Shown piece by piece: positions 5,279 through 24,545 of a DNA stretch of 26,576 nucleotides. Both the position numbers and the translations under genes were made by a program. The notes beneath the pieces were generated by a model. The model did no database searches and was not told the DNA's origin. It saw nothing but the letters and a program-made list of their open reading frames with translations. Source of the DNA: Saccoglossus kowalevskii (lineage: Eukaryota > Hemichordata > Enteropneusta > Harrimaniidae); contig NW_003141315.1 in assembly GCF_000003605.2 (NCBI RefSeq), positions 474,899 through 501,474 of the forward strand. The letters run 5' to 3'. Numbering within the stretch: the first letter of the stretch is position 1; each line of letters starts with the position of its first letter.

Positions 5279-5560
5279 AGGTTGTGGTCGTCCCACCACG
5301 CATGCGCGAGATAAGAGATTCATATGAATAAAGATGGCGACTATTACTGTCGAAGAATACAAACTGAGACGTTACCAAGCTTTAACTATGTAATTCTTTT
5401 GGTGACTGGAAGGTGTCGAATGAATCACCGGCGGTGATTATACTATTGCACGTTTCGCCCAGGCCAAAACTGATTTCCATTAGATGAGCGCATTGGATAG
5501 TGAGAATTAATTTTTATCAACACAAATGTCGCACATACGCGGCGCAACGACCACCGTCCT
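5279..5560. mobile_element. TTAA-duplicating MITE, family A copy 1 (282 bp, T2/Kolobok-like)
   Basis: TTAA lies immediately outside both ends (5275-5278 and 5561-5564); the surrounding 9 bp, TTAAATTAA, is in fact the same on both sides. The left end begins AGGTTGTGGTCGTC and the right end on the opposite strand begins AGGACGGTGGTCGT. The inverted similarity continues for about 30 bp through a CGCATGCGCGA-like block. A diverged second copy is at 13817-14085. A TTAA duplication followed by AGG fits the TTAAAGG ends described for T2-type MITEs (Kolobok superfamily); piggyBac ends normally start CCC. Inside is a 19-codon frame (5334-5393) that shares a long identical stretch with the other copy. 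Confidence 0.75.
5334..5393 (+). other. Conserved micro-frame inside family A MITE, copy 1
   Basis: ATG GCG ACT starts a 19-residue frame, MATITVEEYKLRRYQALTM. It shares TACAAACTGAGACGTTACCA and the following bases through CAAGCTTTAA with copy 2, about 28 nt unbroken, while the rest of the two elements is clearly diverged. The start is embedded in AAGATGGCGAC, which also resembles a YY1 site. It may be a relic of the 5' end of the autonomous element's transposase, or an internal promoter element. Translation is not established. Confidence 0.35.
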
Positions 5561-6385
5561 TTAAATTAAAGCAGCCAGTGACTAAGCACGCATGTTTTCT
5601 ATGGATAGCTTTCCTGTTCTATTCCAGGTTTAAAAAAAAAAACGTCTTAGCACTCAGACAAATTCAAGTCGATTGTAGGGTCACATGACTCGGGGATCGC
5701 CATTACCATTTCCTGGCGAATACGCCTGTGAGTATATGGTAATTTAATAGGAAACAACACCAATTTTAAAATGGAAAGAACCCACAAAGCCACGTTTCCT
5801 CTTTTATATATTATTATATATCATGAATATAATATAAAATGTGTGTTCTCCCCTGGAACGAGAACAATCAGACTAATTACGTTAATAATTACAAGAGTAT
5901 CGCAGTAGCAACGGCTAATAACATCATGTATTCATGATGAGTAGAACATAGAGAACACAGAACATTCGGGAAATGTGTCTCAAACTTGGTAGAGCGTGGA
6001 TTTTGTTAAAGTTAGACATTTCTGTGTTTCGAGATGATACTGATGATGATCATGTTGGCAACATGATTGTCCCGCGTGCCAGTTGCGCTTTCTAAGGCAG
6101 AACACGGTGAGCATTCTGATCTGCAACACAAATTCCCCACGTGTCACCACGCCACGTAACACTGCTGACACTGACAGCCATTACTGACCCGTTTCATAAT
6201 TGATTACTAATGGTGACGTGATCCCCTTGTTTTCAGTTAAATGCGAACGGAAATGAAATGAAATGAAAATATAGATAAAGAGAGGTTGAGACCGGTTATT
6301 GCCTTGTGCTATCGTCGCGCATTGGGGACACCGTCTGGGTGTATGATTTACGTTCGTTTCATTAGTGAAATATTTATTCACAATT
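5561..6385. other. Unassigned stretch
   Basis: Contains an AT-rich palindromic run near 5805-5840 ('tatattattatatatcatgaatata') and frames of about 60 codons without recognisable domains. No RNA gene, exon with convincing splice sites, or repeat was identified. Confidence 0.3.
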
Positions 6386-6616
6386 CAGAGGCGACGGCAC
6401 GGAATTTTGCATGGGGCCGAAGGCGTGACCTTACTAGGGGGTCCTGAGAGCATGGTCCCCTTAAAAATTTGAAATCTAGACTCACTGAAACGCTATTTCC
6501 TGCATTTTGATGGGCAAATTTTGCTGACACAAAACGTTTCAGCTTGATTTTTGAGCGGCGACGCCCCACCAACATTTTTCGAGGTGACGACTGCACCCCC
6601 CGTGCTGCCGCCACTG
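6386..6616. mobile_element. hAT-like MITE, copy 2 (231 bp, 5-bp target duplication CAATT)
   Basis: The same element as at 1443-1669, in the same orientation. It starts CAGAGGCGACGGCACG and ends with the complement of CAGTGGCGGCAGCACG. CAATT flanks both ends (6381-6385 and 6617-6621). Shared interior blocks include 'acgctatttcctgca.tttga' and 'ttttgctgacacaaa'. The two copies differ at many places, including a different run of G/C near the left end, so the insertions are not recent. There is no coding content of its own, although it supplies part of a long chance frame on the minus strand. Confidence 0.87.
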
Positions 6617-7508: not shown

Positions 7509-8323
7509 CACAGGCCAAAAACTTGCAGAAAACGGTACTTTGGGATGATTGTTGAGACTCCCCCGAACAGTGTAACAAGATTAGCCCAGCGTTTGTAACA
7601 TATATAAATTTACTTGTTCAGGATTATTTCAAAGTTGAGTTTGTGTTGTTTGCTCGAATTTTCACCGGCTCGACCGGCGTTCCACATCAGCGCGCACAGA
7701 GCCCATAGAAATGCATGTACAGTGGTGCGCGTCTTAGCAACGTGGAACGTCTTGTGACGTAGCTTTGCCCTTGAGGATAGTATAACACAGTGTACACACT
7801 TATAACCAGTGCGTCTTACACGGAATGCTGAAAAGAGTGCCATCACTAGTTTAACAAAAAAATGATAGACACGAATCAAACCATACAATATTTATTAAGG
7901 TTGAACCTAGCAAAATTTAACAAGTTTAAATGAAATTTATCCGAAACAGTATTTATGACACAAGTCTGAGAGGGGTACATCTGAAGTAAAGTTCTACTTT
8001 GTACACGATCTACAATTTGTAACTGCGGGAAGAAAACACATCGAAAATATTTACGAGCGTGAAGTTGGGAAAAGATTCAGACTCGACGCTTTAGATTCAT
8101 ATTTGTGGCTCATCTGTAAATCTTCGTGACATTCCAACAAACAACGCAAACTAATTAAGTTATAACTCTGAAAAGATGTAATTCTTCGTTCTTGATACAC
8201 TTGATGTACCTTTAAGTTGAAATTAAAAACAGATGGTATCTATGGATCACACGAGTGAGGCGAAACAACGAGGAGACTTTATTTTTGATCTTAGAACGCT
8301 GATCCGAAACTTGAGTCGTTTAA

Positions 8324-8477
8324 AGCGGGCGAGTCGTCACCTACGCATGCGTAAGATGGCTGTAGCGTGTCATTGTTTACAAAAAAGCGTCTACCCATGA
8401 GCCTTTGCGTTCTTAGTGTGTGTTATCATTGCTGGGGACTCAATTCCCGCGCGTGCGCAGGTGACGACCCTCCCGCT
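8324..8477. mobile_element. TTAA-duplicating MITE, family C (154 bp)
   Basis: TTAA lies directly outside both ends (8320-8323 and 8478-8481). The left end AGCGGGCGAGTCGTCACCT and the right end on the opposite strand, AGCGGGAGGGTCGTCACCT, match closely. The inverted repeat continues to about 28 bp with four mismatches. The GTCGTC block and the following CGCATGCG block recall families A and B, but the interior differs. This is the cleanest pair of termini among the TTAA elements here and probably the youngest insertion. Confidence 0.8.
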
Positions 8478-9422
8478 TTAATTTCTACTTAGCTTGTATT
8501 ATTCTGAGTCGAAATCTAAAATATAAGTTATTATACTATGCAATTACATTTTTCAAACTGATATTTAAATCAAATATGACGTGTGTAAACAAGTCTGACG
8601 TGAATTTCACGCGAATCAGACGTGAATTTCACGCGAATCTGGTATTTTTTAGTATTTTTTGCACCTACTACAACTGCTTCTCAATGGGATGAATGGTAAA
8701 CATATAATTATCCCGTTCCCATGACATCCATGTTAATTACTACCAAATAAATCGTTAATGTGAACTCTGTGGGGTCAGTATTCACTAAAACCTCCAGGCG
8801 TTTTGCCAAGTTTGACAGGTGATTGGGTCTTCTGGAAAGCTGCCAGCGTAATTACGTGCGTTCGCAGTCGCCCGTGAAGAGAATGTGGTTCGTTGCTCTC
8901 TTTTACAAGCGATCGGGATGATAGCCTGACAAACACAAGGCCCCATGGTTACGCTCCAATTAATCCAGTACCCACTCATTCTTTATCATATTAACTCAAT
9001 GTGTAATTTGGTGCTACATTTGTCTATGTCACGAGGTGTGTATTTGAAATGAAGGGGGTGTTCTCCATTTTTATTTTCTATCAATTTAAGAGTGCGTTTC
9101 CCTCAAATCTCCAGACACCACCCCTTCGCAAGATTTTGAATGATCGACATATAACTATAATAGTAGTACAGTTATTGAAGGCATGGACCGGAATCAGCCT
9201 TGTCATATTCAACTGCAACTGTTGTAGTTTACTAATCTGCATATACATGCAGTGTTAAGTGAGTGTTGTTAATCTGATATGACTACACGTATTGTGAATT
9301 ACTATCTACATACATATGAACGAAAACTGTGAATATGTGACAAACTATTTTGTTTACTAATCTGAATAATTTATGCACGAACTTAGAAGTGAGAATTATT
9401 AATCTTAATACAACTGTTGCAG
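8478..9422. other. Unassigned stretch with a duplicated dyad and a degenerate direct repeat
   Basis: Contains the 22-bp tandem duplication at 8597-8640 and one partial copy of a repeat ('tttactaatctg...ctgttg.ag') near 9205-9300 that recurs near 9350-9420. Frames of 64 and 69 codons at 8785-8979 (-) and 9049-9258 (+) show no domain. Confidence 0.3.
8597..8640. repeat. 22-bp tandem duplication containing a palindromic core
   Basis: Two adjacent 22-bp units (8597-8618 and 8619-8640) differ only in the last two bases. Each contains CGTGAATTTCACG, a palindrome with a 1-nt centre, so two identical dyads sit two helical turns apart. This could be a pair of protein binding sites; the factor is unknown. 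Confidence 0.8.
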
Positions 9423-12072: not shown

Positions 12073-12196
12073 AAATAATATAAGGTAATTACGAGGATAC
12101 CTCAAAGTATGCACGAAGACAGTACAGCGGGAGTATCGACGGCGTACTGTCTTCGTTCATACTTTGAGGTGTCTTTGTAATAACTTTATTATTATA
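12073..12196. repeat. Long near-perfect hairpin (53-nt arms, 18-nt loop)
   Basis: The left arm (12073-12125) ends in CCTCAAAGTATGCACGAAGACAGTAC; written in two parts, CCTCAAAGTATG then CACGAAGACAGTAC. The right arm (12144-12196) is its reverse complement with one mismatch in this inner half and more mismatches in the AT-rich outer half. The loop is 18 nt (12126-12143). The whole is the size of a miRNA precursor but the stem is longer and more perfect than most. It is equally consistent with a foldback MITE. No promoter or host transcript is visible. Confidence 0.7.
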
Positions 12197-13816
12197 CATA
12201 TTTTTCTTCCAAGGGCACATCATGATAATGCCAAACTCCAAGAAGTTTATAACAGTATCAGCAAACCGCTTTTGTGGAGTCCGGTCAAACCCTGATGGCA
12301 GCCATGTTTGTTTTTATTATTAGAGGACGCTTACGCGCGTAATCATTCCATATTTGGAATTCGCATTTCCTAATATAGTAGGATGAAAATACCCCGTAAA
12401 ATACCGCAATTTTACGGTACGCTGTAACTTATGGCGTTACGGTGACAGATGTATAATAATAAATATTATATAGAATGTGCAATATTGACAGAACTGTTGC
12501 ATACTAATTGTAAATTATTAAAACACGTAGATAAATCGTGTTAAATACAGTGTGTGTTTGTATGATTATATCAATGGCGTCTTGCTACTGACGTAGACGA
12601 TACATTTTCTTGGATACTTTTCCTATTAATTTTTTGAATAAATTAATCCTTTATGTCGCGCCCTCTATCGACGACGACGCACGTCTGTGGCGGGAGAAGG
12701 ACGGTTGGTTGAAAGGCCTGGAATATTATTCAAATACCAGTAATCTATATTATTTGGTATTTCATCTTTCGTCGATTATCACAAAATGGGAAAAATGAAA
12801 CTATTTATATAAATCAATGCAGTTCAAAACAATATTATAGGTGTATAGTAATAGGTTTTGAGACGAAAATTAACAAATTTCCTGTGACGATCTTCGCATT
12901 ATCGTTTTATCCAATCATAACCTTTTGTGTCATGAACCTCTCACGCGGCTACATCACTATGCTAAGTCTAATTTTTAGCATGTATGATTGCTTTCTATCA
13001 TTTATATATTGTCACATTCAATAGTTCATAAATTACTGTTGAGTACATTTCAAATACAGCTGACATGATTCACACTGGACATCGTTTACACTGTTACAAA
13101 CTGGACTTGTATTTATATCGGGATACCCACCTAGAACTAGAACACTTTTACACGTGCGCTTCCCCTGCGTTCCGGACAGAGCAACATCGTACGAGTCCCC
13201 GTCGAATTGTAATCATACGCCCGTACTTTCTTGTAGTTGTACCTCAGTGTCTGTACCTGGGCTTAACACGCATACTTTTATTTGGCAGACTGCCAGGAGC
13301 TAGCCTTTTAACGATATTATGAGTTAAGTTAATATTTAATCTGTTGGTTAATATTTGAGATTGTTTAAATTATAAATTTAACGAGTAACGACCATATGTC
13401 ATGCAGTGTATGCAGACATTATACAAGCATCAACTCTAGAAAATGAAATAAAAACACACACAAAAAAAGTAAAACTTGTTTCTTTTTGAGATATAGTACG
13501 ATATACTCTCAGCAGAGATGAACAAACTCAAAACGTACTTATAAAACTGAGAGTACGAGGATATTATATATATAAGATTATTATATATTTACGCATGATC
13601 ACTGAAACATGCGCAAGTCAAGCGCACGGTATTAATCTTTTTTAGTGGCATTGGCTTTGAAACTGTGAATTTTCCGCACAGTGCCTTGCAACTGACGCTT
13701 TGTACCCAACTTTAACAGCTTGGCGGAATTAATTGTATTTGCTTTAATTTTCCTAAACACACAGAAGTATGGTCGCTAGTTCGAATTAAATACGTGTCAA
13801 TATACGAGTAGGTTAA
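12197..13816. other. Unassigned stretch
   Basis: Includes an 85-codon frame at 13065-13322 (+) beginning MIHTGHRLHCYKLDLYLY, with an AATAAA 125 nt after its stop (13447-13452). No domain or splice context supports it. A 9-bp inverted repeat (TACTCTCAG/CTGAGAGTA) lies at about 13504-13554. A 62-codon frame at 12610-12798 begins with a non-ATG codon and is probably chance. Confidence 0.3.
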
Positions 13817-14085
13817 AAGGCGATAGACGTAGCGCCACGCATGCGCGAGATATTTGGGTATCATATAAACAAATATGGCGACATTGACTGTTGCGCAGGT
13901 CAACGAGTACAAACTGAGACGTTACCAAGCTTTAATTAGGTATTTTTAGGTGTTTGGAAGGTATCGAAGGAATCAAAACAGGCCAAAACTCATACACGTG
14001 ATTTCTATTACCGCATTGGATTGTGGGAAAATCAATGTTTATCAACACAAATGTCGCGCATGCGCAGTGCGACGACCACTGTCCT
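13817..14085. mobile_element. TTAA-duplicating MITE, family A copy 2 (about 269 bp)
   Basis: A diverged copy of 5279-5560. TTAA is kept at the left (13813-13816); the right flank reads TTAT (14086-14089), a single change. Shared blocks include CCACGCATGCGCGAGATA near the left end, 'caggccaaaact', 'cgcattgga', and 'atcaacacaaatgtcgc.ca' near the right end. The left terminus is more decayed than the right (AGGCGATAGACGTAG against AGGACAGTGGTCGTCGCAC). The micro-frame conserved in copy 1 is present at 13875-13949. Confidence 0.72.
13875..13949 (+). other. Conserved micro-frame inside family A MITE, copy 2
   Basis: ATG GCG ACA starts a 24-residue frame, MATLTVAQVNEYKLRRYQAL and then IRYF before TAG. 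It shares EYKLRRYQAL with copy 1, at the nucleotide level without a mismatch over about 28 nt, but has a longer N-terminal part. 'ATTAGGTATTT' near its end resembles a splice donor, so it could be a relic first exon of the parental element. No function is claimed. Confidence 0.35.
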
Positions 14086-14167
14086 TTATTAGTATGGCAA
14101 GTCGTTGTTCTATTGACCGTGTCGTATATAGAACGTAGACAACAAATTGGGAGAATAATATATTTAC

Positions 14168-14617: not shown

Positions 14618-15320
14618 TTCTAGCGTGGCTGAGCCGGGTCCACTAGTTAGATAGCAGGTTTCGCGATCTGAATTAGTTGTATATATCTAAAATTATCAGG
14701 AAGTATCATTTGATACACGGGCCACCATCATTGATAAGGCGATCCACGGAAGAACGCATGCGATTGGACAATGAACTGATTAATTGTAGTGCTGTATATA
14801 CTCACAGTCAGCTGGCGCACACGTGATAATAAAATAAATACGATATTTACTATATGGGGCCGCCATCTTGAATGACGCATACAACTAAATAAGAGACAAG
14901 TTGTGAAACGCGTTTTTCAGATTCCTACAAATCAGGACAAAAATACCAATCTTTCACAAAAATACGGTCCGTTGGGGTTATATTAAGCCAACCGATAACA
15001 AAATTCGGCCTAATTCGTCGTTTTTGTGTGGAAAAATCCCTTGCATACGAACACCTAATTACGCGAAGAACCTAGAACACGAAGCCGGGGTATTTGAAAC
15101 CGAAATTGTCATTTAAGCGTTAGGCCGTCGCTGATTGGCTACTGAGCTGGAATGCCAATTTTTAGTAATCATACTACCACATCATCGTTTAGCTCTGTGT
15201 ACATGTCCATGAATGTGGAAATGTTTATTTTCATCGGGACGTTTGTTGGCACTGCCAAATCCCAATGTAATGCCCTCTTATTAAAACCGCCATGTACACA
15301 GGACTAATAACTTTAGTGCG
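14618..15320. other. Unassigned stretch with a YY1-like site
   Basis: Besides the YY1-like motif at 14859-14870, I find no exon, RNA gene or transposon border. An 'attggct' inverted CCAAT block near 15135 is isolated. Confidence 0.3.
14859..14870 (-). promoter_or_regulatory. YY1-like motif
   Basis: The minus strand reads CAAGATGGCGGC, the classical YY1/Pho-type consensus around GATGGC. In animals such sites often lie at transcription starts or in transposon promoters. No start is evident here. Similar AAGATGGCGAC occurs inside family A at 5331. Confidence 0.3.
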
Positions 15321-15380
15321 GTAATCTCGTTAGTACGGTAGTCTCGTTAGTACGGTAATCTCGTTAGTACGGTAGTCTCG
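15321..15380. repeat. 17-bp minisatellite, about 3.5 copies with alternating units
   Basis: Unit GTARTCTCGTTAGTACG repeats at 15321, 15338, 15355 and (partial) 15372. The fourth base-pair variant alternates A, G, A, G, so the array behaves as a 34-bp dimer repeated twice. A decayed half unit may precede it at about 15311. Confidence 0.9.
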
Positions 15381-16339
15381 TTTGAGAGCGAATGATTCAA
15401 GAGATTTGTTATTGTTATCACGTCCACTGTTCCAAATGCCACGGTTACGTGGTCAGTGGAACTGCGGTCATTTCCCTCTTAGGTCGACTACAGTTGTTTG
15501 TCATATTCCTCTCACACTCGCCAGTTATACATATGCACACACATGCACTCGAATAACCTCGTCCATTGAACGAATGACACCATTCAATTGAATACTAGTG
15601 TCTGTTTATTACTTAACTCGGTGTACAATGGATACCCCCCCCCCCCAATGTATTTCATATTATGCCATATATCTCGGCGTTCCTATTATTACAAATTTAC
15701 AGTTCCGGTTCACGGCTCGGTTATTTCATTAAATAACCAGTTTGTAATCGTATACATCAATGCAGCTCATATAGCGACTAAGCGTCGTGCTCCACTACCA
15801 CCAAAAGCATTCGACAATGTTCAGTGTAATACTGACAATATATAAAGGTTTGGTCTCACCGGAGTTCACAGTGAAACAATACTTCTATTGATTATAGGGT
15901 ATACTAGTATCTATTTATAGATTCATTCGTAAAAGGGTGTTCGGACCTTTCTTCATAATAATTAGCACACTATCAAATACATTTTCCAAATGTCTGATCG
16001 ACTATATTAAATTTAAAATCCATCCAGTGAAAGGTCCGCTATTTCTTTAAAGTGGGTATTAGTTTGGAGAAATTATAGGAGAAGTATTAGCGCAGAGCTA
16101 GGGAGACCAAGCCGCGAAACGTTTTTATGATCCTTATAATTCAACCACTAGTAATTGCATTCTCTCTTAACTTAGTATAAATAAATCCAATATTTCATAG
16201 CCGGGGAACTAAAATATGGTAAATGAATCTTCAACAATAATGTGACACAGCATCTTATTTTTATCGTGTATGACGTCATTTATTGCATTAAAAAATCACA
16301 GATTTTTATTTTGACAAATGTTATCGGCAAATACATAAA
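15381..16339. other. Unassigned stretch
   Basis: Contains a run of 12 C at 15635-15646 and two open frames of 69 and 85 codons (15382-15591 and 15588-15845, +) without recognisable features. The 5' part of the LINE remnant at 16340 may extend into the end of this stretch in unrecognisable form. Confidence 0.3.
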
Positions 16340-17503
16340 GTTGGATAGTAAACTGTATACCTGCTTTATTCGATACAGTTTGGAGAAATATCCTCTTATA
16401 CAAATTACTAAATAATAGCATCAATGGGAAAATATATAAAGTTATTAAGTGCATATATAATAAAACACAGTCATGTATACGCTACAACATCGAAATTTCA
16501 CAAATATTTAAGACCACAGAATGAGACTGACAAATATGTGTCACTAGTTCTATTCTATTTAATCTACATATTAAAGTTCTGCCCATGCCCTTTATAAACT
16601 TAAACAATAGATACCAAGTGAAAGTAACAGTAAAACATATATACATCTCTTTAAGGCCCGTATAAAGCCAACCCGTCTATACCATTCAGATATTTGGGGG
16701 TACTGAAATTCTCACTAATGTTAAATGGGATAAAACCCCAACTAAAAACAATCACTCAAAATTTTACAAGCAACTACTGGATCCAAACAAACTTACTGAA
16801 AATTTAGCATGTAAAGCTGAGGTTGGAGAACTATACAGCCAGGTAAAACAAGCATTTTATGAACAAAAACGCTCAAATTTATTGTAGATGTTTCATATGC
16901 AAAATATATTGAAAGAAGAGAATGTACAAGAAAAGGATATATTTATCTTCAACAAATTCTAAAGCTATTCATGAAACTACAACAGAAAAAATATAAAGAA
17001 AGAAAATTCAAAGTTGAGAACGTATGTAGAGTGCAAAAATAACTATAATTGTGATCCTTACCTTGCTATATTAAAACCAAACAAAGAATCATGTCAAACA
17101 TTTTGAACAAGTAACAACAATTTTGCAATTGAGAAAGATAGACATACCCAGCCAAAGATAATATATAATTTAATTTGTAAACAATGCTCGCTAAATCCGA
17201 TTTAAGATGAATTACACATTTTACTACTTTGCCTTAAATATCATTTAGACTGACAAAATATCCTGACGAATATTGAATTCCCTGCTAAAATCACCAATAT
17301 ATTCCAGAAACTTGTATATCTACTTGAAAACAGAAATGTGGAAATAATAAAAAGCATTGGAATTTTTTTAAACAGGTGCTTCACAACACGAAATGAAAGC
17401 GCATAAGTTTTCTTTTGATGTTACATGTACTACTTTTTAGTTTTTGTTATCTACTAAAGTATATTATTTAGTGTTCTTTTTTTCTAAAGATGCAATAAAA
17501 TAA
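16340..17503 (+). mobile_element. Decayed 3' part of a second non-LTR retrotransposon (LINE)
   Basis: Across several frames the plus strand gives, in order: LFDTVWRNILLYKLL (reverse transcriptase motif A) with INGKIYKVIKCIYNKTQSCI (16370-16480); ILFNLH; then 'RIKPTRLYHSDIWGY' near 16665; GGTEILTNVKWDKTPTK and FYKQLLDPNKLTENLACKAE (16690-16830); and near the end DELHILLLCLKYHL with NRNVEIIKSIGIFLNRCF, stopping at TAA about 17405. This is the order of a LINE ORF2 from mid-RT to its C-terminus. The FADD region is missing or unreadable, so there is an internal deletion. A short 3' tail with AATAAA near 17494 and an ATT/ACT microsatellite follows. It differs in sequence from the LINE at 3743-4535 and lies in the opposite orientation. 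Confidence 0.8.
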
Positions 17504-21278: not shown

Positions 21279-21372
21279 CCAATCACAGGTCGTTTAAACT
21301 CAACGTCACGTGACAAGTAACACGTCATCCATCGGAGGATATAAAAGCAGACAGGGCGACTCCAAAATCAGC
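21279..21372 (+). promoter_or_regulatory. RNA polymerase II core promoter: CCAAT, E-box, TATA, initiator
   Basis: The elements are CCAAT at 21279-21283; GTCACGTGAC, a perfect 10-bp palindrome, at 21305-21314; a CRE-like ACGTCA half-site at 21322-21327; TATAAAAG at 21340-21347; and a TCAGCA initiator whose A at 21370 lies 30 bp from the first T of the TATA box. CCAAT lies about 90 bp before the start, a textbook distance. The palindrome is a USF/MITF/TFE-type E-box and identical to the vertebrate CLEAR consensus for TFEB. It serves the four-exon gene that follows. The spacing of four independent elements makes this a strong call; the factor that binds the E-box is inference. Confidence 0.85.
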
Positions 21373-21434
21373 ACTACAGAGGTTACGCCGAAGGAAGAAA
21401 CTGCAATCAAACTAACATTTACAACAAACCCACA
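21370..21434 (+). other. Predicted 5' untranslated region
   Basis: About 65 nt from the predicted start at 21370 to ATG at 21435. It contains no upstream ATG. The start codon context is 'cccacaATGag', with A at -3. Confidence 0.7.
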
Positions 21435-22977
21435 ATGAGGTAGGTTTTTTTTTAAATCTTATCTCATGTATCATAAGTTTGCTGGCAAATTCAGAGCGAT
21501 TTCGTTTGTCCTACGTTGGGAATCCCCGATCTAATTCTGTATTTTTCGTTGGTGATTCTGAAGGTGCTCATCGCGTAAAGTGCTCCAAAAAATCGGCTTC
21601 TGTTTTGTGTGAATCTAGCGGGTTTCGTTCACTCACCTGGGTTTGTGGCGTATAATGTCGCGACTGTTACTTGAGGTCAATTGTCTCGTCTACATGCAGA
21701 TCGCATCATCGTCTGTACACACAGTATGCCTCTCATTGTCGGCGATGTAAAAACATTCACCACATCTGTGAGCGTATCGTGTGTGGTTGTTATTAACGTA
21801 GCTACTATTATTTCTGTTAATAATTAAACCACAGGTACATAATCTGCGTGTCATAACCAGCAGTTCGTTACCGCCTACCGCGTCTATGCCGTGATGAGAA
21901 ATCAGCACTAGAAACCCAATTTCAGAAATAGGGTTTCCTTTAAATATAAGCACACACTTAGCCGGTGAGATGATTATGATGATGACAGAATTTGTATTTG
22001 TATCCGTCTTTTTTCTCCACAGATTCGCCGTAATTGTATGTGTTGCACTCGTGCTGTTGGTTACCTACGTTAAATGTAACAACCCAGACGGTAAGTGAGT
22101 GCACTGTGTTTTAAATACTGCTGAACCTAGAGTTTTACTAGTTTAGCCATGCCGTAAGTCACGTTTTGACTGTCTCGAGTATGATGAATGTATAAATTAT
22201 GACGTTTACGATTTTAACTGTGACTGTTTCCGCGCCATGCGCCATTATTGAGGGGGTAGTCTTCTTAAGTCAGTTTAGTTTATTTAAATTCAAAATACAG
22301 GAATACTTGACACGACTACGTCGGAGGAAAATAAACAGAATATATTCATTTTGCGATAAATTTCCATGATACTCCCACGAAAATGCAACTTGGGTTTTAA
22401 AAATGAAGATAAAAATAAGTTTTTTTTTTAGCAATTTATTGCACATACAAGTCGGCGGGCGCGAGAAATTACGCTGAAATAAAATTTTATTTTTATTTCA
22501 TTTTCGGCGCCTGTTCATTCGGCGGGTTCGCGAAACAAGGGATAATAAAAGTCTGGCCTTACATAAATGTCAACTTGTATGTTCACATGAAATACTAGTT
22601 GCTCACTGTAAATTAGACTATTTTTCAACGTTTAGTTTGATTTACGTGATGCTCGTTTTTTTCTCACCCCAGAATTTCTGAATGAACGGGATTTGCGGGA
22701 CGTGAACGGCGAGGAGATGGAAGGTACAACAGAAGCCGGTAAGTTGATGAATCTATATAATATTACGAGTCCATATGCGTTCCACTGTGAGCTGTCAACT
22801 TTTACAACGGTTACAATCGTATCTGTGCCGTGTTAATCCAACTCTGCCGTTTATTTATTCATTTAATTGGTTGTTTTTGTTTTTGTTTTCTCATCAACAG
22901 GTAGTTCAGTCTCCGGCTTAAGGGTGGATTATGTAACCTTCCTCTGTGTCTGTGCGACTGCTTTGCTGTTCCGATAA
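21435..22977 (+). CDS. Four-exon gene for a 71-residue secreted or GPI-anchored surface peptide, unrecognised
   Basis: The coding exons are 21435-21439, 22023-22090, 22673-22738 and 22901-22977, in phases 2, 1, 1. All three donors (GTAGGT, GTAAGT, GTAAGT) and acceptors (CCACAG, CCCCAG, CAACAG after pyrimidine tracts) are consensus. The precursor begins MRFAVIVCVALVLLVTYVKC, a clear signal peptide probably cut after Cys20 (V at -3, C at -1). Residues 21-46 are polar and acidic: NNPDEFLNERDLRDVNGEEM and then EGTTEA. Residues 47-52 (GSSVSG) are small, followed by a short spacer and a hydrophobic tail (VTFLCVCATALLF) ending in Arg71. That order fits a GPI-attachment signal, with a mature chain of only about 29 residues, an arrangement like mammalian CD52 or CD24 but without sequence similarity I can see. 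A single-pass tail anchor is the alternative. Exon 3 (66 nt) is symmetric and encodes most of the acidic part. The promoter is described separately. Gene structure is firm; function is unknown. Confidence 0.82.
21440..22022 (+). other. Intron 1 (583 bp)
   Basis: Runs from GTAGGT to CCACAG and splits the coding sequence after five nucleotides, so the start codon has almost an exon to itself. The 87-codon minus-strand frame at 21690-21953 lies within it and is treated as chance. Confidence 0.8.
22091..22672 (+). other. Intron 2 (582 bp) with an internal inverted repeat
   Basis: Runs from GTAAGT to CCCCAG. It carries a 10-bp inverted repeat (ACATACAAGT, 22443-22452, and its complement at 22573-22582) that encloses about 120 bp. 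Inside, TCGGCGGG followed by GCGCGAGAAA or TTCGCGAAA occurs twice, and GAAATAAAA/TTTTTATTTC can pair. Confidence 0.75.
22443..22582. repeat. Possible small MITE or regulatory module in intron 2
   Basis: Ends are ACATACAAGT and its exact complement. Within are two E2F-like blocks (one with the palindrome TTCGCGAA) in an otherwise AT-rich intron. No target duplication is visible, so a mobile origin is only a possibility. Confidence 0.35.
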
Positions 22978-24545
22978 AATTCAGCATTAAATGTAAGAAT
23001 ATAGAGCAAAATTAACAAAACTCTTCATTTTTTAAGCGTTAAAGCGTAATAGTCACCTTGAAGCGCGCGCGTCAGATTATTTTACGCGCCTTTTAGAACA
23101 TACAAACCGCCGTGGCGCGACACGTCAGTGGCGCGTGAACAAAAACATATTGAATGAGGCGTCAGGTATTTGTTTACTATTTCTGTTCATGTTAGCCCAA
23201 GAATTGTTTGAAATATCAACGAATGTCTAGTCGGCACTCATGTACACTGTTCTTGTTATCAGCAATAACGCAGGTAACTTGTATGTAAACGACACACAGA
23301 AAAATAAAAAGTGTTTTCTGTTTTTTTTAGTACAGTTCAGTACTAATAACAACAGTTGTTACGCAATATTCACATGTACTGCAACGCAATGCCATAGCAT
23401 CGTAACTCGATTTACATTATTGAACCATATAATAAAAAAAAACAGGGTTTTGCATTTCCCATATTCTAAAAACTTGTCTTTTTTCTTATTTTTAGGGACA
23501 GTACAGTCCGTTTATTGAGTACAACGATCCTGACGGACGGCGCCTAACCGACACCGATCAACGAACATCATGCGGCTACTGTCATGATTGGATGCAATTC
23601 CTGTTTTTGTGAATGTTGGGAGTTTTCATGTAATTCTACTTTGACGAATTTCAGGAAAACAGTCCACTTCAAAAAGTCTAGCGCCCAAACCTTATAATTG
23701 TCTAATCTATGTATCAATCCTATTAGCTGACATATTTTCTGTTGATATCGTGTGACTTTTAATGAGAGGCGATCTGCCACGATGAATAGTTTTGTGATTG
23801 GTTGCATTCAGATTTCATGACAGTAGCCCGGATGTAGTAATGCTCGTGTCTATTCTGAGTTGTTATGACGGGACTGACGAATATGGACAATGAGGGCGCT
23901 GTTTCTTGCCTTAGTCGAAGTTCGGCTGCTGTCGCAAAAGCCATGACAGGACATTCTGCATTTCGGATATTCAGGTTATTTAAATAGGTACACAGTGTAA
24001 CGATACTAAGCATAACGTGACCACACGTACTAAAATGACTAAGTTAAATTATCTTTACACACCAATGTCGTCCCATAGTATCTCTATGGTGACAGATACC
24101 AGTATTGCTATGTGGAAGATACCGTGACACAAGTATGCATGAATGACGTCATGATTTGATGAAAACGGATGCCAGGCACATGAAGGCACATAATCAAAGA
24201 CACTAAAAACTAGTGTCTTTGACATAATGGATGATGTTCTAATACATATGCATTGCAATTCGTAATGTCTATTTATAGTTCAAACGATTCCGTGTCTGAG
24301 ATCATGGCATCTGTCGAAAATATTGTAAAAGCATAGGAATTTCATTGTAATGTTTCGCAGTAAAACTGGCGAACTTTTGGAACAACCGGAAGTAAATTAA
24401 CATTGAAATCCCGCTTCTGTCGATACAGGGTAAACGTGACATCTTTCTGCCGCTTTCATGTCGGGCTTTCCATATATACCCTACCTCCTGCATTTTCATA
24501 TTTATGTATTTATGAACTTGACAAATAAAGTATAACTTTAGAGTA
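22978..24545 (+). other. 3' flank or untranslated region of the small gene, with several poly(A) signals
   Basis: Poly(A) signals on the plus strand are ATTAAA at 22986-22991, only 9 nt after the stop, and AATAAA at 23303, 23431 and 24524. The last is followed by a T run (24559-24569) and a GT-rich stretch, as expected of a strong site. The true end of the transcript cannot be fixed from sequence. A GC-rich patch with repeated GGCGCG lies at 23060-23140 and a perfect stem-loop at 24194-24222. Minus-strand frames at 23568-23807, 23759-24013 and 24302-24499 have no support. Confidence 0.4.
24194..24222. repeat. Perfect 12-bp stem-loop with 5-nt loop
   Basis: TCAAAGACACTA (24194-24205), loop AAAAC, then the exact complement TAGTGTCTTTGA (24211-24222). 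If the upstream gene uses the poly(A) signal at 24524, this would lie in its 3' untranslated region. No terminator or histone-type consensus is present. Confidence 0.8.

Follow-up and report, generated by a model that had tools for sequence, protein, structure and literature searches.

The hemichordate Saccoglossus kowalevskii carries, in a stretch of 26,576 nucleotides that we refer to as the window (positions 474899-501474, reaching the end of the contig), a chain of four short exons that rejoin into a single frame of 71 codons. The chain encodes, in order, a hydrophobic N-terminal segment, an acidic middle, and a small-residue patch followed by a hydrophobic C-terminal end. Judged from its sequence, the locus is very probably a real gene, and we lean toward the view that its product is a GPI-anchored acidic surface peptide, for which we infer expression, both cleavages, the attachment of GPI, and a role as coat or carrier. 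The gene looks like a small animal gene lacking a name, not a new kind of system.

Four Short Exons Rejoin in One Frame

Rebuilding the gene from the sequence yielded a 71-residue frame from four rejoined exons, with a stop codon ending at 22977 (Table 1), and the coordinates assigned to it in an earlier, sequence-only reading proved to be exact. That reading had described four exons, six consensus splice sites, and a 71-residue precursor, all of which stood: the reading frame is preserved across each junction (21439/22023, 22090/22673, and 22738/22901), with intron phases of 2, 1, and 1, and the splice sites rank among the best of the + strand. The coding portions of exons 1 to 4 are 5, 68, 66, and 77 nt in length, respectively, and the spliced product is MRFAVIVCVALVLLVTYVKCNNPDEFLNERDLRDVNGEEMEGTTEAGSSVSGLRVDYVTFLCVCATALLFR. 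A stop is present in both other frames of each of exons 2, 3, and 4, and the frame that is open in these exons is the one required by the splice phases. The GC content of the coding sequence is 0.48, as compared with 0.35-0.41 for the introns. Exon 3 could be skipped with the frame left unchanged.

Table 1. Features of the predicted gene and its flanks, in window coordinates
Feature	Position	Strand	Remarks
CCAAT	21279 (-91)	+	Word match, putative upstream element
ACGTCA	21303 and 21322 (latter -48)	+	Word match, putative upstream element
CACGTG within GTCACGTGAC	21307 (~-63)	+	Word match, putative upstream element
TATA box TATAAAAG	21340..21347, -30 from proposed start	+	Single TATAAAAG on + strand of window
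Predicted 5' untranslated region, 65 nt	21370..21434	+	Leader free of ATG; A at position -3 relative to start codon
Exon 1 coding part, ATGAG	21435..21439	+	Rebuilt model; ATG at 21435
Intron 1, 583 nt, phase 2	21440..22022	+	Donor rank 5, acceptor rank 1
Exon 2: predicted signal peptide and first mature residues (2-24; codons 2 and 25 split at ends)	22023..22090	+	Rebuilt model
Intron 2, 582 nt, phase 1	22091..22672	+	Donor rank 2, acceptor rank 2
Exon 3 (66 nt; phase 1-1), encoding the acidic segment EFLNERDLRDVNGEEMEGTTEA	22673..22738	+	Rebuilt model
Intron 3, 162 nt, phase 1	22739..22900	+	Donor rank 1, acceptor rank 4
Exon 4 through the stop codon, encoding the GSSVSG patch of small residues, a spacer, the hydrophobic tail VTFLCVCATALLF, and a final R	22901..22977	+	Rebuilt model
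ATTAAA polyadenylation-like signal, shortly 3' of stop	22986..22991	+	Word match
Possible alternative last exon, unanchored 53-residue product (speculative)	23496..23518	+	Acceptor 5.1; chain sum 39.3; also in word test

Splice Sites and Comparison with Shuffled Sequence

The splice sites were scored with a generic donor and acceptor matrix that was not trained on this genome. By this generic measure the three donors rank first, second, and fifth among the 1690 GT dinucleotides of the + strand, and the three acceptors rank first, second, and fourth among its 1244 AG dinucleotides. The minus strand speaks against uniqueness, as it has a stronger donor at 21636 (score of 8.7) and an equally strong one at 17061 (7.3). 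The former (CAGGTGAGTG) is the top donor-like site of the window on both strands; it lies antisense within intron 1 and could be the mark of an antisense or divergent transcript.

With thresholds set at about the weakest observed scores, exactly one in-frame chain of three introns encoding at least 60 amino acids was present on the + strand of the window and none on the minus strand, and the same rule returned no chain in any of 400 dinucleotide shuffles. When models were anchored on a TATA box and the scores were relaxed, the gene attained a sum of 40.1, as compared with a maximum of 29.4 across 200 shuffles of both strands. Under a laxer test, which dispensed with the matrix and relied on consensus words only, three-intron chains encoding at least 50 amino acids turned up in four of 500 shuffles and two-intron chains in 38 of 500. 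Applied to the real + strand, the word-only test found four three-intron chains, which have exons 1-3 in common and vary in the last exon. It also found 21 two-intron chains; these pass without exception through the same internal exons, and 20 of them begin at ATGs located at 21970-21982, within intron 1. No chain was found by this test on the minus strand of the window.

Because the chains from the word-only test share their internal exons and differ in the start or the last exon, we regard exons 2 and 3 of the predicted gene as firm and its ends as less so. Exon 1 is assigned on the strength of the promoter and of a strong acceptor, that at 22023. For the last exon there are several choices, and the one adopted is the best of them, the alternatives being nearly equal in TATA-anchored sum score (39.3, 37.5, and 37.5, as compared with 40.1).

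Putative Promoter and Transcript Ends

The proposed start of transcription is the A at 21370, which lies in an initiator-like TCA site downstream of the TATA box. Further upstream, at 21279..21327, are motifs that we presume to be promoter elements. Single words are frequent on the + strand of the window (27 occurrences of TATAAA, 19 of CCAAT, and 13 of CACGTG); GTCACGTGAC occurs once on that strand, and apart from it and TATAAAAG the promoter words recur often in the window. The pairing of a TATA box with TCA(G/T) at the correct spacing is found at four places on the + strand of the window and at none on the minus strand. The region had been described as a complete promoter: the layout of TATA box and initiator does fit this description, but it amounts to a consensus match only. 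The predicted mRNA would be about 0.3 kb in length, plus tail.

The Precursor Has Two Hydrophobic Ends and an Acidic Middle

Residues 3-18 of the precursor form a strongly hydrophobic core, and the sequence V-K-C precedes Asn21. When the residues were shuffled 200,000 times, an equally hydrophobic N-terminal end arose 19 times and an equally hydrophobic C-terminal end 4333 times, but the two were never found together. Nine of the 26 residues at positions 21-46 are acidic, giving a net charge of -7, and none is cysteine. Neither an N-X-S/T sequon nor a dibasic site is present in the 71 residues, and Ser and Thr account for four of residues 21-49.

The C-terminal end conforms to a GPI-like rule at Ser49, with a spacer of 8, and an omega at Gly42, Ala46, or Gly47 would likewise place small residues at both omega and omega+2. 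The GPI signal, as described in the available text of PMC9098846, consists of small residues at omega and omega+2, a spacer of 8-12 residues, and a hydrophobic tail of 15-20 residues; the tail of the present protein has 13 uncharged residues followed by Arg71, which is below that range, or 15 residues, at its lower limit, if both Tyr57 and Arg71 are counted. Our rule was drawn up after the peptide had been seen, with the tail length set to 13 residues, and under it a single one of the 504 open reading frame ends in the window (frames of at least 30 amino acids) conforms, namely that of the exon 4 frame of this gene; five of the 504 have the hydrophobic tail alone. The terminal Arg could favor a membrane stop, and a short transmembrane form is possible.

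These features bear out much of what had been read from the sequence. A signal peptide had been proposed and agrees with the hydrophobic core and with the rarity of so hydrophobic an N-terminal end among the shuffles; the acidic middle is evident from its composition and charge; and the small-residue patch with its hydrophobic, GPI-like end is present, although the tail is short. The alternative that had been offered, that of a peptide precursor, loses ground in that no dibasic site is present.

Searches for Relatives

None of 24736 Pfam models matched the 71-residue protein at E values of up to 10. A search of PHROGs gave one weak match, to phrog_12653 (function unknown; E of 0.0026; residues 4-34), which falls mainly on the hydrophobic signal and was dropped as compositional. 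The PDB gave a single match, with an E of 1.7. Among viral contigs there was one match, of 19 residues, which we take as chance: it runs across the end of the signal peptide and lies within a frame that, judged by eye, encodes a phage DNA polymerase. Contigs of bacterial and archaeal genomes yielded 289 matched stretches, none of which was confirmed as a relative.

The organism's own genome (572,110,611 bases in 4830 contigs), searched at E values of up to 10, returned only the gene's own three exons (three first-look candidates); this protein search was run exon by exon, so that distant copies would escape it. The DNA of exon 2 occurs once in that genome. Nothing convincing as a paralogue was seen in the window besides the gene itself, or in the 20 kb upstream of it. 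The proposal that the locus represents an undescribed system was thus overstated, as we are dealing with a single small gene for which no paralogue was found in its own genome.

The string DEFLNERDLRDV was not found in the literature searched. Literature on small GPI-anchored and secreted proteins and on hemichordate peptides and genomes was also searched, with most subscription papers lying outside the coverage, and among the matches listed we recognized none as this gene, nor did we recognize among them a minimal surface peptide of this kind in a deuterostome outside the chordates.

Across the window as a whole, we found no match to Rfam at gathering scores and no tRNA with ARAGORN. A Pfam scan of nine of the 28 window open reading frames of at least 80 amino acids assigned no family to eight and gave two sub-threshold matches for one. 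An AT-rich open reading frame at 23231-23518 has a sub-threshold match to a Pfam neurotoxin helical domain (18.4 bits, as compared with a cut-off of 52.2), which we take as chance.

What the Product May Be

As we picture it, each exon would supply roughly one functional segment of the 71-residue precursor. Exon 2 would provide an ER signal peptide, with cleavage near Cys20/Asn21, and would end just past the predicted cleavage site; exon 3 would provide a short acidic, cysteine-free ectodomain that is probably disordered; and exon 4 would provide a GPI-attachment signal, whose omega residue is most likely to be among Ala46, Gly47, and Ser49. Removal of both ends would leave some 26-29 residues with a net charge near -7, held by GPI on the outer leaflet of the membrane, where the peptide could act as a small acidic surface coat or carrier and might be O-glycosylated.

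A real gene could also encode a single-pass (type I) membrane microprotein in which the C-terminal stretch is a short transmembrane segment and Arg71 is cytosolic. We consider this unlikely, if worth keeping in mind: the terminal Arg does follow a hydrophobic run, and short-CDS smORF peptides, in the part of PMC10036370 available to us, have a median length of 80 amino acids and generally a transmembrane helix, but 13 uncharged hydrophobic residues are short for the usual helix, and the small-residue patch and polar spacer that precede the tail are as in GPI signals. Somewhat less likely again is a secreted peptide or propeptide, in which the acidic or the hydrophobic C-terminal part would be active or from which a soluble form would be made by way of the exon at 23496. 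The presence of a signal peptide accords with secretion, as does the finding that the 23496 last exon yields 53 residues without a hydrophobic tail at a sum of 39.3; set against this are the lack of a dibasic processing site, the lack of cysteine in residues 21-46, and the retention of the tail by the top-scoring model.

We judge it very improbable that the locus is not a functional protein gene at all, whether because its splice-like sites form a chain by chance, because it specifies a non-coding RNA that is spliced, or because a former gene has decayed. No homologue was accepted from the libraries searched (Pfam, PHROGs, PDB, viral contigs, bacterial and archaeal genomes, and the organism's own genome), and the lax rule did produce three-intron chains of at least 50 amino acids in four of 500 shuffles. 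Yet the scored rule produced none in 400, the splice sites rank among the best of their strand, the TATA box and initiator are in position, the combination of signal and tail was absent from 200,000 residue shuffles, and the frame has no internal stop. Among all of these readings, the one we prefer is that of a GPI-anchored acidic surface peptide. A bolder version of it, to which we give slightly less credence even than to the absence of a functional gene, is that of a minimal GPI-anchored acidic peptide restricted to hemichordates and independent of CD52 and CD24, which would exist in anchored (22901) and soluble (23496) forms, allowing a change from one role, as cell coat, to another, as a signal that is released.

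The strength of its splice sites and the layout of its segments make it possible to recognize, in raw sequence, a credible gene whose coding exons measure only 5-77 nt. If expressed and conserved, it would add to those of the non-chordate deuterostomes a protein of very small size that is probably GPI-anchored.

Surroundings of the Gene and the Mitochondrial Contig

Elsewhere in the window there are dispersed repeats that resemble one another at about 70-75%, as well as an inverted element (6384-6616 with 1441-1669; 13835-14088 with 5296-5563; and 12075-12195); these are probably copies of transposable elements. Copies of 5283-5565, 13824-14088, 12227-12463, and 8318-8481 are also present in the 20 kb upstream of the window. 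A tandem repeat at 15313-15382 consists of about four copies of a 17-base unit, TTAGTACGGTAATCTCG. The idea of an arthropod host was set aside when cuticle proteins of family PF00379 had no match in the genome, a result that is weak alone, given that 14 control genomes also had none.

A mitochondrial contig of the same genome (C4830; 17,037 bp) carries COX1; its other genes were named by reading translations. On it, ND5 adjoins CYTB, ND6 is on the opposite strand, ND2 comes before ND1, and COX1 is inverted between ND1 and COX2. Ten stop-to-stop frames of the contig contain 7 AGA, 1 AGG, and 55 AAA codons, the lone AGG preceding the probable start of COX3. In an alignment with mammalian COX1, nine ATA codons fall opposite Ile (five), Val (two), Leu (one), and Met (one), and one AAA falls opposite Lys; ATA is probably read as Ile. 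According to the accessible part of PMC3121625, the S. kowalevskii mitochondrion has an inverted COX1 and a transposition of ND1 or ND2 relative to Balanoglossus, and its code has AUA as Ile, AAA as Lys, AGG unused, and AGA as Ser. Hemichordates have nd5 and cob adjacent (PMC2697986, as far as its text is available), and lancelets have another mitochondrial gene order (PMC2034537) and read AUA as Met (PMC3121625), again by the available portions of these sources. A lancelet was set aside on the grounds that the contig reads ATA as Ile and has COX1 inverted. The gene order and code of the contig agree with the published Saccoglossus traits, so that the host is most likely a Saccoglossus-like acorn worm.

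Comparison with Known Small Proteins

In neuropeptide precursors, dibasic cleavage sites flank the peptides, whereas the 71 residues of the present protein contain no dibasic pair. CD52 is laid out as a signal peptide, a short ectodomain, and a GPI signal, and CD24 is a mucin-like protein with many glycosylation sites and a small GPI-anchored ectodomain. The gene had been likened to both, and the comparison holds for size and layout but not for glycosylation (no sequon and four Ser or Thr in residues 21-49). With CD24 it would share a small GPI-anchored ectodomain, the anchor being predicted here, but dense mucin-like glycosylation in CD24 contrasts with four Ser or Thr in residues 21-49, no sequon, and a mostly acidic character here. 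The likeness to CD52 lies in a very short mature peptide, a GPI anchor (again predicted here), and the layout, and no sequence similarity is claimed. Human CD52 is a GPI-anchored peptide of 12 residues that is heavily glycosylated, with N- and O-linked glycans (PMC11982460 and PMC7125958, in the parts available), and its 12 residues with an N-glycan differ from the approximately 26-29 acidic residues, with no sequon, that are predicted here.

Two further groups of small proteins bear comparison. Purriato is described, in the available text of PMC10036370, as crossing the membrane once, a topology that is conserved, and as having homologues across the protostomes. It and other short-CDS smORF proteins from that text resemble the present protein in length (about 70-80 residues) and in having a hydrophobic membrane segment, but this gene differs from Purriato in encoding two hydrophobic ends and in having no relative in the collections searched. 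The secreted orphan proteins of aphid bacteriocytes, as presented in the accessible portion of PMC3574423, are small, carry a signal peptide, lack known relatives, and are often cysteine-rich. The present protein is likewise small, carries a signal peptide, and has no relative in the collections searched, but whereas the aphid proteins of that account are often cysteine-rich and are secreted, this one would have a cysteine-free ectodomain and a GPI-like tail.
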